Below, piece by piece: positions 25,552 through 33,016 of a DNA stretch of 64,000 nucleotides; within the stretch, counting starts at the first letter, position 1, and each line of letters opens with the position of its first letter. A program made the position numbers and the translations under genes. Source of the stretch: Futiania mangrovi (GTDB lineage Bacteria > Pseudomonadota > Alphaproteobacteria > Futianiales > Futianiaceae). The notes beneath the pieces are model-generated. The model saw only the letters and a list, made by a program, of their open reading frames with translations. It had not been told where the DNA came from and did not search any database. The stretch covers positions 124,001 through 188,000 of the forward strand of contig NZ_JAMZFT010000004.1 of the NCBI RefSeq assembly GCF_024158125.1, in the 5' to 3' direction.

Positions 25552-26178
25552 ATGATGTTCGAGACCCTGGCCGCCGCGCTCAACTGGTTCGGGATCGTCG
25601 TCTTTGCGGTGACCGGGGCGCTGGTCGCATCCCGCAAGCAGATGGATATCGTCGGCTTCGTCCTGCTTGGTGTCGTCACAGGGATCGGCGGGGGGACGGT
25701 GCGCGACCTGCTGCTCGGCCGGGCGCCCGTGTTCTGGATCGGGCAGCCGGAGTATCTCGCCGTCTGCGCCGCGGTGGCGGCGGTTGTCTTCTTCACCGCG
25801 CATATCCCGGAATCGCGCTATCGCCTGCTGCTGTGGTTCGATGCGCTGGGGCTTGCGGTCTTCGCGGTCACGGGTGCCGAGACGGCCTTTCTGGCGGGGG
25901 CCGGCGTTGCCGGTGCGATCGCCATGGGAATGATCACGGCGACCTTCGGCGGGATCATCCGCGACATTCTCGGCGGTGAGAGCCCCGTGATCCTCAGCCG
26001 CGAGATCTATGTGACCGCCGCGCTGGTCGCGGCCTGTCTCTACGTGGCGCTGGCGGCGGCAGGCGTGGCGCGTGAGGTGGCGCTGTGCGCGGGGTTCGCC
26101 GCCGGTTTCGGCCTGCGGGGCGCTGCGCTCACCTGGAACTGGACCCTGCCACGCTACAGACCGCGTCCGGGGCGGTAG
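25552..26178 (+). CDS. TRIC/UPF0126-type cation channel
   Basis: 208 residues with seven hydrophobic segments arranged as two similar halves. Each half has the diagnostic glycine-rich motif followed by R-D: GVVTGIGGGTVRDLLLGR (about residues 40-57) and TATFGGIIRDILGGE (about 128-142). Prokaryotic homologues of trimeric intracellular cation channels form homotrimeric monovalent-cation pores. Two adjacent ATG codons are possible starts; GGAG precedes the first. It stands alone ahead of the nitric-oxide genes and shows no functional link to them. Confidence 0.88.
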   Translation: MMFETLAAALNWFGIVVFAVTGALVASRKQMDIVGFVLLGVVTGIGGGTVRDLLLGRAPVFWIGQPEYLAVCAAVAAVVFFTAHIPESRYRLLLWFDALGLAVFAVTGAETAFLAGAGVAGAIAMGMITATFGGIIRDILGGESPVILSREIYVTAALVAACLYVALAAAGVAREVALCAGFAAGFGLRGAALTWNWTLPRYRPRPGR

Positions 26179-26363
26179 GGGGCGGCTGAAAGGCCGCAGC
26201 CGGCACCCATTGCGTTCAGGGCCCAAAAGGCCGAGCCTCCACGAAAGGCGCGCGCCACGAATCGCGCATCCGGGAGGCCCAGTCCGGCGCGCCCGGCGTA
26301 CTGCATGGGCCACCCCAGCCGTTTCGGAAATCGCGAACGGCACCGGGAAAGGACAGGACAGCG

Positions 26364-27560
26364 ATGGCGACCTCGGCCGAACGCATGCGGGCCTGGCAGG
26401 GTCCCGCCCTCCTGAGTTTCGGATTCAGACCCTTCTTCCTCGGTGCGGGGCTTTGGGCCGTGCTCGTCATGCTCGTGTGGCTCCCGATGCTGGGCGGCGA
26501 CATGAGCATGCCGACCGCCTTCGACCCCGTGTCCTGGCATGCGCATGAATTCCTCTTCGGCTATCTCGGTGCGGCGGTGGCCGGCTTCCTTCTGACGGCC
26601 GTACCGAACTGGACAGGGCGGCTGCCGATTGTCGGCTGGCCGCTGGGTGCGCTCTTTGCCGTCTGGATCTGCGGACGTGTTGCCATCGCCACGTCGGAAT
26701 GGTGGCCTTTCTGGCTCGTCGCCCTTGCGGAGCTTGCATTTCCGGTGCTGCTGGCGCTGGCTTTGGCGCGTGAAATCGCGGCCGGGAAGAACTGGCGAAA
26801 CCTGACCGTGCTGGCGGCCCTTGGGGTCCTGACCCTGGGCAATGGCGTCTTTCTGTGGGAGGCCGCACGGGGCGATTACGCGGCGGGCGGGGCCGGCCTG
26901 CGCATCGGCCTTGCAGCGGCCCTGATGATGATCGCGCTGATCGGCGGCCGCATCGTTCCGTCCTTCACGCGCAACTGGCTTGCGCGCCGCGATGCTGGAA
27001 GGCTCCCGTCGCCGGTTGGCGCCTTCGACCGTGCGGTGCTGGCGGCTACGGGCGTGGCGCTCGCGGCCTGGGTGGCGGCGCCGGACGAGGCGGCGACCGG
27101 GATCGCCCTGATCGTTGCAGGCGTGCTGAATGTGGCGCGGCTCGCCCGCTGGTGCGGCCACCGGACGGGAGCGGAGCCCCTGCTGTGGGTTCTGCACGTG
27201 GGCTACGCCTTTCTGCCGCTGGGTGCGCTGGCCGTCGGTGCAGAAGTCTTGTGGCCCGGCCTGTTGGGCATGGCAGCGGCACAGCATCTCTGGATGGCCG
27301 GTGCCATCGGGGTGATGACGCTTGCCGTGATGACGCGGGCGACGCTCGGCCACACGGGCCGGTCGCTGACGGCGGGGCAGGGTACGACCATTCTGTTTGT
27401 GCTGATCGTCGCGGCGACGCTGCTGCGGATTGCGGCAGGTGCCGCGCCCGACCATGCTTCGCTGTTGCACATGCTGGCCGGCCTGGCGTGGCTTGGAGCG
27501 TTCGGCGGCTTCGTGCTGCTCTACGGGCCGTTGCTGCTGCGCCCGCGGGGTGGGCGCTGA
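26364..27560 (+). CDS. nnrS: NnrS-family haem/copper membrane protein
   Basis: 398 residues with about twelve membrane helices. The N-terminal signature LSFGFRPFFLGAGLWA and the later SWHAHEFLFGYLGAAVAGFL and RIVPSFTRNWL are typical of NnrS. NnrS is linked to relief of nitric oxide stress in denitrifiers and in Vibrio cholerae. The start at 26364 follows GGACAGGAC. It is followed four bases later by nnrU, then by an nsrR-like gene and the nos operon, a coherent NO/N2O group. Confidence 0.9.
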   Translation: MATSAERMRAWQGPALLSFGFRPFFLGAGLWAVLVMLVWLPMLGGDMSMPTAFDPVSWHAHEFLFGYLGAAVAGFLLTAVPNWTGRLPIVGWPLGALFAVWICGRVAIATSEWWPFWLVALAELAFPVLLALALAREIAAGKNWRNLTVLAALGVLTLGNGVFLWEAARGDYAAGGAGLRIGLAAALMMIALIGGRIVPSFTRNWLARRDAGRLPSPVGAFDRAVLAATGVALAAWVAAPDEAATGIALIVAGVLNVARLARWCGHRTGAEPLLWVLHVGYAFLPLGALAVGAEVLWPGLLGMAAAQHLWMAGAIGVMTLAVMTRATLGHTGRSLTAGQGTTILFVLIVAATLLRIAAGAAPDHASLLHMLAGLAWLGAFGGFVLLYGPLLLRPRGGR

Positions 27561-27564
27561 CACC

Positions 27565-28230
27565 ATGGGCTGGAGCGGTTTCGTTCTGGCCTTTGCGGCC
27601 TTTTTCCTGACCCATGCAGTGCCCGTGCGCCCGCCGGTGCGGCCCTGGCTGGTCGCGCGTCTCGGGCCGAGGGGGTTTGCGCTCGCCTACGCGGCGCTTT
27701 CCCTCGCCGTGCTGGGCTGGCTGATCGTCGAGGCGGGACGGGCGCCCTATGTCGAACTCTGGGAACCCGCCGCGTGGCAGCGGCACCTGACGCTCGCCGC
27801 CATGCTGCCGGCCTGCCTTCTGCTGGCGGTGGCGGCGGGGCGGCCCAACCCGTTCTCCTTTGGTGGCCCGCGGGACGGCTTCGACCCTGCGCGCCCGGGC
27901 GTCGTGCGCTGGATGCGCCATCCCCTGCTTGTCGCGCTGGCGCTCTGGGCGGGGGCGCATGTCGTGCCCAACGGCGACCTGGCGCACGTGATCCTGTTCG
28001 GAGGCTTCGCGGCCTTCGCCCTGGCGGGCCACGGGCTTGTGAACCGGCGCCGGAGGCGGGAGCTTGGACACATCTGGGCGGACCTCGATGCGCAGGTGCG
28101 CGCCGGTTCCCTGTTCCCGCGCCCGCCCTCTTGGCCGCGCCTCGTGCTGAGGCTGGTTGCGGGTGTCGTGCTCTATACCGGGCTGATCGGCTTGCACCCT
28201 GTCGTGTTCGGCGTAAGCCCGCTGTCCTGA
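27565..28230 (+). CDS. nnrU: NnrU-family membrane protein
   Basis: 221 residues with about six hydrophobic segments. The pattern THAVPVRPPVRPWLVARLG at the start, RHPLLVALALWAGAHVVPNGD in the middle and NRRRRRELG after it fits the NnrU/isoprenylcysteine-methyltransferase-like family. It is the partner of nnrS in several denitrifiers, required for normal nitrate/NO metabolism, biochemical role unclear. Begins four bases after the nnrS stop. Confidence 0.87.
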   Translation: MGWSGFVLAFAAFFLTHAVPVRPPVRPWLVARLGPRGFALAYAALSLAVLGWLIVEAGRAPYVELWEPAAWQRHLTLAAMLPACLLLAVAAGRPNPFSFGGPRDGFDPARPGVVRWMRHPLLVALALWAGAHVVPNGDLAHVILFGGFAAFALAGHGLVNRRRRRELGHIWADLDAQVRAGSLFPRPPSWPRLVLRLVAGVVLYTGLIGLHPVVFGVSPLS

Positions 28231-28345
28231 CCGGAGCCCGCCCTGTGCCCGCGCGGCGGAAAGACGTCTTCCGTTTCCGCACCGGCGCGGCATATTCTTT
28301 CGCGCCACTTTCCGGCGGGCAGGTCCAGGGAGGAGAAGCGGCACC

Positions 28346-28792
28346 ATGCGTCTGACGTTGCACAGCGACTATGCGTTGCGGACGCTGATGTATGTGGCGC
28401 TGGCGCCCGAGCGGCTGGTCAGCATCGCGGAGATCGCGGAGCGCTACGGCATTTCGCGCAATCATCTCATGCGGGTCGTCCAGGAACTGGCGCAGAAGGG
28501 CTTCCTTGAAACCCGGCCCGGCCGTGCAGGCGGCATGAAGCTGGCCGCCCGGCCCGAAACCATCCGCCTGGGCGCCGTCGTGCGGGATATGGAGCCCGAC
28601 TTCGCACTGGTCGAGTGTTTCCATCCGAACGGGAATTGCCGGCTGGCGCCCGACTGCCAATTGGGTGGCGTTCTCGACGAGGCGCTGTCCGCTTTCCTCG
28701 CGGTGCTCGACCGGTACACGGTCGCCGACCTGATCGCGCCTGCAAACGCGCTGCGTGCCCGCCTCGGACTGGAGACGACGGCGCGGCAATAA
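28346..28792 (+). CDS. nsrR: Rrf2-family nitric-oxide-sensing repressor, NsrR-like
   Basis: 148 residues. The N-terminal winged helix has the NsrR-typical LHSDYALRTLMYVAL and YGISRNHLMRVVQELAQKGF. Three iron-sulfur cysteines are visible, C91, C98 and C104, in an ECFxPxxxC...C arrangement typical of NsrR rather than IscR. NsrR releases DNA when NO attacks its cluster. It sits between nnrSU and nosR, and an NsrR-like site lies within the inverted repeat before nosR. AGGAGAAG precedes the start. Confidence 0.88.
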   Translation: MRLTLHSDYALRTLMYVALAPERLVSIAEIAERYGISRNHLMRVVQELAQKGFLETRPGRAGGMKLAARPETIRLGAVVRDMEPDFALVECFHPNGNCRLAPDCQLGGVLDEALSAFLAVLDRYTVADLIAPANALRARLGLETTARQ

Positions 28793-28863
28793 CCCGGGGG
28801 CGACCTGCGCATCCCCGATCGCGAGCGCCCCATAAGTGCAGAAAATCCTATCTCTTCTGGCCA

Positions 28864-28877
28864 TTGACGCACATCAA
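28864..28877 (+). promoter_or_regulatory. FNR/NNR-type box of the nos promoter
   Basis: TTGAC-GCAC-ATCAA matches the FNR/NNR consensus TTGAT-N4-ATCAA at nine of ten positions. It is centred 65 bases before the nosR ATG. If it works as a class II site (centre at -41.5), transcription would begin near 28912, inside the following inverted repeat. Activation under low oxygen and NO is expected. Confidence 0.72.
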
Positions 28878-28883
28878 GTTTGG

Positions 28884-28926
28884 TCGGCTTCAAACAATGT
28901 ATCCAAAATACATTGTTTGAAGCCGA
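28884..28926. promoter_or_regulatory. 19-bp perfect inverted repeat with NsrR-like site before nosR
   Basis: Arms 28884-28902 and 28908-28926 are perfectly complementary around CCAAA. Its core, AATGTATCCAAAATACATT (28896-28914), fits the published NsrR consensus (RATGYATTT-N-AAATRCATY) at all but two positions. It sits between the FNR-type box and the nosR ribosome site, over the inferred transcription start, which suits a repressor. The arms are much longer than an NsrR site needs. Depending on the true start, the RNA might also fold as a hairpin ahead of the ribosome site. Confidence 0.75.
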
Positions 28927-28935
28927 GGACAGGCG

Positions 28936-31119
28936 ATGCGCATCTCACCCCGGACAGGCCGTTGGAAAAGGCTGACTGCCGCCGTCCTGACCGGCTTCCT
29001 CTTGCTGTTCGCGGCGATCCCCGCAAGGGCTGCGGAACTGCCCCGCTTCCTCAAGGAGCTTTCGCCCGGCGACCTGGTACCCGGCGCCACCGCCTTCGGC
29101 CCGTTGCGGGAGGAGGTGCCCGTCGCCCCCGTCCTCAAGGATGGCGCGACGGTCGGCTATGCCTATCTGACGTCCGATTTCGTTGGCACGACGGGCTATT
29201 CGGGCAAGCCGATCCATGTGGTGGCGGCCATGTCGCCCGATGCGGTGCTCACGGGCATCCGCCTCGTCGACCATGCAGAACCCATCGTGCTCGTCGGGAT
29301 TCCGCAAGCGAAGATGACCCGCCTGGTCGAGGGGTACGCGGGCGTCGACCTTAAGGTCGAGGCCGCGGCAGGCGGATCCGCGCACGACCTCGACATCATC
29401 TCGGGCGCGACCGTCACCGTGATGGTGATCGACGATTCGATCATCCGGGCGGGTCTGAAGGTCGCGCGCGCCCTTGGCCTCGGGGGGCTTGCGCCGGAGG
29501 TGCGCAGCACCGGGCCCGCGCGTGCAATCGACCGGGAGATGAGAGCGGTCGAGGATTGGGGAACGCTCGCGGGCGACGGCACGATCCGGCGCCTCACGAT
29601 CGACGTCGGGCAGGTCAACAGGGCCTTCGCCGAACAGGGCGACCCACGCGCCGCTGCCCGCCCGGAACGGGGCCCCGAAACGGACGCCTTCATCGACATG
29701 GCTGTCGCGCAGGTCAGCGTTCCCTCGGTCGGCCTCAGCCTTCTCGGGCAGCAGGAGTACGCCAATCTGGAAGCCTGGCTGCAGGAGGGCGAGCACGCCA
29801 TCCTCGTGGCTGCGCGCGGGCGCTATTCCTTCAAGGGTTCGGGCTATGTGCGCGGCGGCATCTTCGACCGCATCCAGCTGATCCAGGGCGACCGGTCCGT
29901 CCGCTTCTTCGACAAGCAGCATCGCCGCCTGGGCGAGATCGCGGCGGATGGCGCGCCCGCCTTCACCGAGATCGATCTGTTCAGGATCCCCGCGGATGCC
30001 GGCTTCGATCCCACGCAGCCCTGGCGGCTTCAGCTTCTGGTGCAGCGTGCGGTGGGTCCGGTGGAGAAGACCTTCCTGACCTTTGATCTCGGCTACCGTC
30101 TGCCCGACCGCTACACGACACCGGTCGGCGCACCTGCTGCCTTCGACGCCGCGACGGGTGAGGCAGAGGCGAAGGCCGCGCTCTGGCAGCGCATATGGCG
30201 CGACCGGCAGGTGGAGATCGCGGGTCTCGCCGTCATGCTGACGGTGCTGACCGGGGCGTTCTTCTTCCAGATGCAGGCGACGCGGAACGAGCGGGCGTTC
30301 TTCTGGTTCCGCATGACGTTCCTGACCTTCACGCTGGTCTTCATCGGCTGGTACGCGAACGCGCAGCTGTCGGTCGTGAACCTGATGGCGCTGGCGGGCG
30401 CGCTGAAGTCGGGGTTTTCGTGGGATGCCTTCCTGCTCGACCCGCTCGTATTCATCCTGTGGTTCTCGGTAGCCGCCGCGCTGATCTTCTGGGGCCGCGG
30501 GGCCTATTGCGGCTGGCTGTGCCCGTTCGGCGCGCTGCAGGAGCTGACGAACCGCATCGCGCAAGCCCTGGGCGTGCCGCAACTCCGCCTGCCCTGGGGG
30601 CTGCACGAGCGCCTGTGGCCGCTGAAGTACATCATCTTCCTCGTGCTCTTCGGCGTGTCCCTCGCCTCGATCCCGCTGGCCGAAACGCTGGCCGAGGTCG
30701 AGCCCTTCAAGACCGCGATCGTGCTGAAGTTCGCGCGGGCGTGGCCGTTCGTCGCCTTCGTCGTGGTGCTGCTGCTGGCCGGCCTGTTCATCGAGCGGTT
30801 CTACTGCCGCTACCTCTGCCCGCTGGGTGCGGCGCTGGCGATCCCCGCGCGGATGCGGATGTTCGACTGGCTGAAGCGCTATCACGAGTGCGGCCACCCC
30901 TGCCAGACGTGCAGCAACGAGTGTCCCGTCCAGGCGATCCACCCCACCGGCGAGATCGCGCCCAACGAATGCATCAACTGCCTTCACTGCCAGGTGCTCT
31001 ACCAGAGCAAGGCCAAGTGCCCGGTTGTCATCCGGCAGGTGAAACGCCGCGAGGCGCTCGCCAAGAGCGGTCTCGCGCCCACAGAAACACCAAAGGCAAA
31101 GGAGAAGAGCCATGCCTGA
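28936..31119 (+). CDS. nosR: NosR, FMN and iron-sulfur membrane protein for N2O reductase
   Basis: 727 residues. A signal/anchor helix is followed by a periplasmic FMN-binding domain with the flavinylation motif SGATVT near residue 155. Six or so membrane helices start near residue 425. Cytoplasmic polyferredoxin parts follow: [11 protein letters not shown] and [12 protein letters not shown] (CxxxCP motifs) and a C-terminal pair of 4Fe-4S-type clusters ([21 protein letters not shown]). NosR is needed for expression and electron supply of N2O reductase; its flavin is attached by an ApbE-type enzyme, encoded here by nosX. Overlaps nosZ by eight bases. GAGGACAGG precedes the start. Confidence 0.95.
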
Positions 31120-33016
31120 CGACCTGAAACCCATCAAGATGTCGCGGCGCGCGATGCTCGGCGCATCGGCGAGCGGGGCGGTGCTCGCCGCCACCGGCGG
31201 CACCGTCTACCTGGCGGGCGGCGCCACGCCCGCACACGCGGCCGGCGTCAACCTCGCACCCGGCGAACTGGACGAGTATTACGGCTTCTGGTCCTCGGGC
31301 CAGACGGGCGAGTTGCGCATCCTCGGCGTGCCCTCCATGCGCGAGCTGATGCGCGTGCCGGTGTTCAACCGCTGCTCGGCGACGGGCTGGGGCCAGACCA
31401 ACGAGAGCCTCAAGATCCTCACCGAGGGTCTGCTGCCGGAGACGAAGGCCTTCCTCGCCGCCCACGGCAAGAAGACCTACGACAACGGCGACCTGCACCA
31501 TCCGCACATGTCGTTCACCGACGGCACCTATGACGGGCGCTATCTCTTCATGAACGACAAGGCAAACACGCGCGTGGCGCGCGTCCGCTGCGACGTGATG
31601 AAGTGCGACAGGATCATCGAGATCCCGAACGCGCACGACATCCACGGCATGCGGCCGCAGAAGTTCCCGCGCACGGGCTATGTCTTCGCCAATGGCGAGC
31701 ACGAGGCCCCGCTCGTCAACGACGGGCAGATCCTCGACAGCCCCGAGGAGTATGTGAACATCTTCACGGCCATCGACGGCGACACCATGGAGATAGCCTG
31801 GCAGGTGATCGTCTCGGGCAACCTCGACAACACCGACTGCGACTACCAGGGCAAGTACGCGTTCTCGACCAGCTACAACTCCGAGATGGGCATGACGCTC
31901 GCGGAGATGACGGCAAACGAGATGGACCATGTCGTCGTCTTCAATCTCAAGGAGATCGAGGCGGGCGTCGCCGCCGGCGACTACCAGGTGCTGAACGGCG
32001 TGAAGGTGCTCGACGGGCGCAAGGGGCAGAACAAGAAGTACACCCGCTACATCCCGATCCCGAACAGTCCGCACGGCATCAACACGGCGCCCGACAAGCG
32101 CCATGTCGTCGTGAACGGCAAGCTGTCGCCGACCTGCTCCGTCATCGACGTGACGAAGCTCGACGCGCTGTTCGAGAGCGATGCCGAGCCGCGCTCGGCC
32201 ATCGTGGCCGAACCGCAGCTGGGCCTCGGACCCCTTCACACCGCCTTCGATGGCAAGGGCAACGCGTTCACAACGCTCTTCCTCGACAGCCAGGTGGTGA
32301 AGTGGAACGTCGAGAAGGCGATCCGCGCCTATGCAGGCGAGAACGTCGATCCGATCATCTCCAAGGTCGACGTGCACTACCAGCCCGGCCACAACTCGAC
32401 CTCCATGGGCGAGACGGCGGAAGCCGACGGCAAGTGGCTGATCTCGATGAACAAGTTCTCCAAGGACCGGTTCTTGAACGTCGGCCCGTTAAAGCCGGAG
32501 AACGAACAGCTCATCGACATCTCGGGCGACGAGATGAAGGTGGTCCACGATGGGCCGACCTTCGCGGAGCCGCACGACAGCATCATCGTGCACCGCTCCA
32601 AGGTGAACCCGCAGACCGTGTGGAAGCGGGACGACCCGACGTGGGAGGAGGCGCGCCAGCAGGCCGCCGCCGACGGCGTCGACCTGGACTGGGGCGCGGA
32701 CGTGATCCGCGACGGCAACAAGGTGCGCGTCTACATGCACTCCGTCGCGCCAATGTTCAGCCTCGAGAAGTTCACGGTAAAGCAGGGCGACGAGGTCACG
32801 ATCTACGTCACCAACCAGGACGACATCGATGACCTGACCCACGGCTTCTGCCTGTCGAACTTCGGCATCGCGATGGAGGTCGCGCCGCAGGCCACCGCCT
32901 CGGTCACCTTCATCGCCGAACGTCCGGGCGTGCACTGGTACTATTGCCAGTGGTTCTGCCACGCGCTCCACATGGAGATGCGCGGCCGGATGTTCGTCGA
33001 ACCGCGGGCGACCTGA
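31112..33016 (+). CDS. nosZ: Nitrous-oxide reductase, Tat-exported
   Basis: 634 residues. A twin-arginine signal ([10 protein letters not shown] near residues 11-20) gives folded export to the periplasm, as in clade I NosZ. The beta-propeller domain holds the histidines of the four-copper CuZ centre, for example [12 protein letters not shown]. The C-terminal cupredoxin CuA site is complete: H577, C612, W614, C616, H620 and M623 ([14 protein letters not shown]). Reduces N2O to N2 as terminal step of denitrification. It starts inside the end of nosR, and the maturation genes follow directly. Confidence 0.97.

Follow-up and report, generated by a model that had tools for sequence, protein, structure and literature searches.

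A candidate NsrR operator inside a 43-bp perfect palindrome at the predicted nosR start of Futiania mangrovi

Introduction

NsrR sites are known to span 23 bp in the form of an 11-1-11 inverted repeat (PMC4432287), and in the Streptomyces repressor (ScNsrR) the ligands of the [4Fe-4S] cluster are Asp8 and three Cys (PMC5411485). In Magnetospirillum gryphiswaldense, NsrR binds and represses the nosZ promoter, while NO weakens the binding and the genes are derepressed (PMC11014258). In beta-proteobacteria, norB and nirK have a predicted upstream DNR activator site and a downstream NsrR site (PMC1274295), and gonococcal aniA (Neisseria) needs both FNR and the relief of NsrR by NO (PMC1802743). 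The nosR2 promoter of Dinoroseobacter shibae has one Fnr/Dnr box, measured at 41.5 bp upstream of the transcription start (PMC5398030). Template switching is an established route to perfect inverted repeats (PMC8794818; PMC7202029 for E. coli).

Here we analyse a 64-kb stretch of the Futiania mangrovi genome (the window) in which a long perfect inverted repeat stands directly in front of nosR. The site shares with described NsrR operators the ATGTAT-N5-ATACAT core, the 23-bp span and an adjacent Rrf2 gene whose product has the aligned Asp8 and three Cys. It differs from them in that the symmetry is perfect to 43 bp, two flank positions per half-site deviate and no further convincing site was detected in the genome. 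As in M. gryphiswaldense, the control predicted here is of the alphaproteobacterial NsrR type and acts on denitrification genes; that organism has many targets with loosely defined 19-bp sites, whereas here one clear palindromic site is seen, at nosR. The order of a CRP/FNR-type box with an NsrR site downstream is that of norB, nirK and aniA, but the target is nosR and the arms are long and perfect. With D. shibae nosR2 the locus shares a single Fnr/Dnr box 41.5 bp from the start, which is predicted in our case; unlike at the window's nosR, an NsrR site is not described in the part of that account considered.

Results

The genes and sequence elements of the locus are collected in Table 1. On one strand, nnrS, nnrU and the Rrf2 gene precede nosR and nosZ, and nosZ is followed by nosD, nosF, nosY, nosL and nosX, which were named from translations and gene order only. 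For nosR, 580 relatives were confirmed by tblastn, the top identity being 77%. NirS had no match in the genome, and the matches to NirK were all below the family cut-off; with a clade I NosZ, no NirS and no above-cut-off NirK, the genome is possibly that of a non-denitrifying N2O reducer.

Table 1. Features of the nosR promoter region and neighbouring genes (positions within the 64-kb window)
Feature	Position	Strand	Evidence
nnrS	26364-27560	+	PF05940, E 1.3e-110
nnrU	27565-28230	+	PF07298, E 7.4e-54
NsrR-like Rrf2 regulator (148 aa)	28346-28792	+	Pfam Rrf2 PF02082 1.9e-35; ScNsrR 6e-18
FNR/FixK/Dnr-type box TTGACGCACATCAA (candidate activator site)	28864-28877	+	exact match to TTGAYNNNNRTCAA
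Left arm of perfect inverted repeat, TCGGCTTCAAACAATGTAT	28884-28902	+	sequence
Candidate NsrR-type operator, 23 bp; core ATGTAT-N5-ATACAT (28897-28913)	28894-28916	.	motif score 26.4
Predicted -10 element TATCCA	28900-28905	+	register of 26 aligned nosR promoters
Right arm of perfect inverted repeat, ATACATTGTTTGAAGCCGA	28908-28926	+	sequence
Predicted nosR transcription start	28912, about +/- 2	+	41.5 bp from FNR-box centre
Shine-Dalgarno GAGGA of nosR	28925-28929	+	sequence; first two bases are the right-arm end
nosR	28936-31119	+	NCBIfam NosR model 801 bits, below curated cut-off 1000
nosZ (TAT-dependent, clade I)	31112-33016	+	TIGR04244 1151 bits, above cut-off 625

The earlier note had described a 19-bp perfect repeat ending 9 bases before the nosR ATG, and re-reading of the sequence reproduces both arms and this gap exactly. 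All 19 arm pairs are Watson-Crick, the loop between them is CCAAA (5 bp, 28903-28907), and the symmetry holds without a mismatch between 3 and 21 bp from the centre, or over 43 bp in all. The repeat (28884-28926) is the strongest short-loop inverted repeat in the window; with loops of 3-10, the longest perfect arm found elsewhere in the window is 13. In composition-matched surrogates (n=40, 64 kb, first-order Markov) the longest perfect arm was 8-12, and as it never exceeded 12 bp, the 19-bp repeat is not due to chance. The 3.39-Mb genome holds no second copy of the inner motif with up to 3 mismatches, nor of the outer-arm pair with up to 2. Beyond the arms the repeat extends outward imperfectly (28866-28883 with 28927-28944, giving 37-nt arms that are 78% complementary), an extension that in read-through RNA pairs the FNR box with the nosR start-codon region.

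The same note had assigned the inner 19 bases to an NsrR-like site with 12 further bases of symmetry per side. An NsrR-like site is well supported by sequence, phylogenomic and motif evidence; its unit is 23 bp rather than 19, and the additional symmetry stands at 10 bp per side. The unit is an 11-1-11 inverted repeat in which the ATGYAT-N5-ATRCAT core is exact. Rrf2 homologues were searched in 289 genomes of the class and in 40 of one family, and the neighbourhoods of homologues 46-62% identical to the window protein have a palindrome in common (consensus TAAGATGTAT-N5-ATACATCTTA), located mostly 25-125 bp upstream of the homologue's own gene. The window site had itself been part of the first motif, and a second version was therefore built without it, from 33 non-redundant sites beside homologous regulators. 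On the rebuilt motif the window site scores 26.4 and the runner-up in the 64 kb scores 8.4, the top score in shuffled 64-kb windows being 10.5. When the inner-core pattern was scanned over 190 class members, most hits were AT-rich chance matches, and one, in genome G166, lies immediately upstream of an Rrf2 homologue.

NsrR-like sites were also found at other nosR promoters, with scores of 31.6 (L062), 30.1 (L084) and 25.9 (L082); in a null of 1600 shuffled promoters the 99% level was 5.8 and the maximum 17.4. Each of these three genomes encodes an Rrf2 protein 50-54% identical to that of the window, the copy in the L082 genome reading through one stop codon. A further NsrR-like site upstream of nosR, at L017, scores 41.1; it is located at about -211, and the nosR copy that it precedes is divergent and the second one of genome G058. 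By motif comparison, the predicted link between NsrR and nosR recurs independently of the long repeat. Given such sites at several other nosR promoters and the published binding at a nosZ promoter, the operator core is ordinary: the core of the nosR repeat is a nearly standard candidate NsrR operator, of an ordinary kind and in a sensible place.

Several observations count against reading the core as an NsrR operator. The half-site flank is ACA-ATGTAT and that of the family AAG-ATGTAT, so that two positions differ (ACA/TGT instead of AAG/CTT among the outer half-site bases, 1/3 matches per side). The genome, nsrR and nnrS genes included, is without a convincing second NsrR site, and a looser NsrR pattern run over it returned just two more matches at 3 mismatches, both poor scorers. 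In addition, the Rrf2 protein falls short of the NCBIfam cut-off for NsrR and scores slightly higher for RirA, again below the cut-off.

This protein carries a clear Rrf2 domain (122 bits against a cut-off of 30). Its closest solved structure is that of Streptomyces NsrR, with IscR at 6e-6, and its Asp8 and three Cys align with the cluster ligands of ScNsrR, all four being kept. The NsrR-like gene that had been placed just upstream of the repeat is thus recovered, with ScNsrR as its closest solved relative. Since the protein reaches the NCBIfam equivalog cut-off neither for NsrR (121 vs 182 bits) nor for RirA (124 vs 193 bits), we call it NsrR-like and do not class it as a confirmed equivalog.

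Upstream of the repeat, TTGACGCACATCAA is the only exact match to TTGAYNNNNRTCAA in the 64 kb. An exact box of this type is present in 26 of 81 nosR promoters. When the start is placed 41.5 bp away from the centre of the box, these 26 aligned promoters have A at -11 in 88% and T at -7 in 58%; the window promoter has the conserved -11 A, and at -7 has A instead of T. This register predicts that nosR transcription starts at about 28912, inside the repeat, where the candidate NsrR core overlaps both the predicted -10 element and the predicted start. Against the operator reading, the start is placed by alignment alone and the -10 element is poor at -7. The genome encodes a CRP/FNR protein that is FnrN/FixK-like by inspection, having an N-terminal Cys cluster and an E-x-x-S-R recognition helix; an NnrR-type box (TTGCG-N4-CGCAA) was not found at nosR. 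A second CRP/FNR-type gene (L242, 4246-4944) is located on the strand opposite to a narK-like gene, named by inspection, and is reminiscent of NarR.

At the RNA level, the fold of a transcript with both arms has an energy of -54.4 kcal/mol (z -5.2). To open 28920-28950 takes 25.3 kcal/mol when the RNA is a read-through transcript, 16.8 +/- 0.9 kcal/mol when its left arm is shuffled and 12.7 kcal/mol when the RNA begins at 28912. The Shine-Dalgarno region of nosR (28918-28934, GAAGCCGAGGACAGGCG) is largely complementary to about 28981-29000 in the early coding region, and this pairing could partly shield the Shine-Dalgarno in the short mRNA, for which the overall fold is not significant (z +0.6). 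Rfam contains no family for the repeat, the one match being at chance level (18.5 bits vs a gathering score of 98).

For the outer arms, the comparison covers one genome of the order, and the nosR relatives, at most 77% identical, come from elsewhere. The comparison with related nos promoters that the earlier note had suggested divides its proposal. Lack of conservation in relatives, one of the two refuting outcomes that the note had listed, applies to the long arms, for which the examined relatives show no conservation at nosR, but not to the operator core: some other nosR promoters do have NsrR-like sites, of shorter length. Across 48 NsrR-type sites, palindromy stays high over the first 11-14 bp or so from the centre and then drops to about 0.3, and long palindromes among them are sporadic (L138/L208, L216). 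L138 and L208, from two species of one genus, have 18-bp arms, perfect but for one mismatch, which lie in the rrf2 promoter at about -73 to -33; their outer arms are unchanged while the flanks vary, which is weak evidence at best.

Discussion

From sequence comparison we consider it quite probable that nosR is subject to FNR-type activation and to NsrR repression relieved by NO on one overlapping promoter. At low oxygen, the FNR/FixK-type activator would bind its box and recruit RNA polymerase in the class II manner, and transcription would begin near 28912. As long as NO is absent, the NsrR-like protein in its [Fe-S] form would occupy the 23-bp operator, over the -10 element and the start, and block transcription. 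NO would destroy the cluster and so release the repressor, allowing expression of nosR and of the nos genes that follow, the net effect being a promoter that would need low oxygen and NO together.

The one real anomaly of the nosR operator is its 43-bp perfect symmetry. The 10 bp of extra symmetry per side are unneeded for NsrR binding, and the long symmetry, real as it is, may be a by-product of replication. The most economical account of the outer bases would be a template-switch extension of an existing palindrome: a short NsrR palindrome would have stalled replication, and quasi-palindrome correction would have made it perfect, leaving the outer 10 bp of each arm functionless. We regard this by-product reading as a serious null and give it slightly less than an even chance. 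One event of the established mechanism can yield perfect arms (PMC7202029, E. coli; PMC8794818), the scattered long cases (L138/L208, L216) form the pattern that a sporadic mutational process predicts, and the outer-arm pair recurs nowhere else in the genome. Weighing against it, the extension event itself is invisible with one genome of the order compared, and the constancy of the outer arms beside varying flanks in L138/L208 is a weak hint of constraint there. Once present, the extended arms may have been kept as harmless or as silencing the translation of read-through RNA. It is distinctly unlikely that the outer half-sites (TCGGCTTCAA / TTGAAGCCGA) instead make up a larger operator, contacted by another dimeric protein or by NsrR in a higher-order complex. 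They do share the symmetry centre, their own centres are 33 bp apart, or about three helical turns, and long arms exist at a few other NsrR-type sites; yet a pair with no further genomic copy, even when 2 mismatches are allowed, calls for a regulator with a single target, and the other long sites have different outer-arm sequences.

The second function that had been proposed for the extra length is hypothetical. A start at about 28912 lies inside the repeat, so the mRNA from nosR's own promoter would lack the left arm and form no hairpin; the hairpin could form only on read-through RNA from nnrS-nnrU-nsrR. On such RNA it might act as an insulator, masking the nosR Shine-Dalgarno and start codon while RNA from 28912 is freely translated, and NosR would then be made from the regulated promoter only. 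The stability of the hairpin, the higher opening cost of the read-through RNA relative to RNA from 28912, the absence of a terminator-like site between nsrR and nosR and the end of the right arm within the Shine-Dalgarno all favour this possibility, which adds to the operator reading and does not replace it. Even so, we think it rather unlikely: any long palindrome pairs stably, and the energies are therefore no independent evidence; the long repeat is not conserved at other nosR genes; in L138/L208, the long palindrome most like this one, about 33 bases separate the arm from the start codon of rrf2, which means that shielding is no general reason for long arms; and in RNA from 28912 the coding region can also pair with the Shine-Dalgarno. 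Also unlikely, by our estimate, is a palindrome with two full roles, in DNA as the NsrR operator on the nosR start and in RNA as a translation-blocking hairpin, limited to read-through transcripts by the position of the regulated start between the arms. If it were true, template switching would have made the operator a leak-proof switch in one step. As for a terminator or attenuator of the nnrS-nnrU-nsrR operon, a strong stem does stand 3' of the nsrR gene, but an intrinsic terminator has a U-tract after its stem and here GGACAGGCG follows with no U-tract, a scan of 26100-29100 finds no terminator, and the repeat overlaps the predicted nosR promoter; such a role is extremely improbable.

With the long arms, it can be tested cheaply whether an operator is able to develop into an RNA insulator. 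For the organism, the bearing of dual control by FNR-type activation and NsrR is on NosZ, the main known biological sink of N2O. If the proposed regulation is true, the strain would express NosZ only when low oxygen and NO are both present, and as NirS is missing from the genome and no match to NirK reaches the cut-off, neighbours would probably have to supply the NO.
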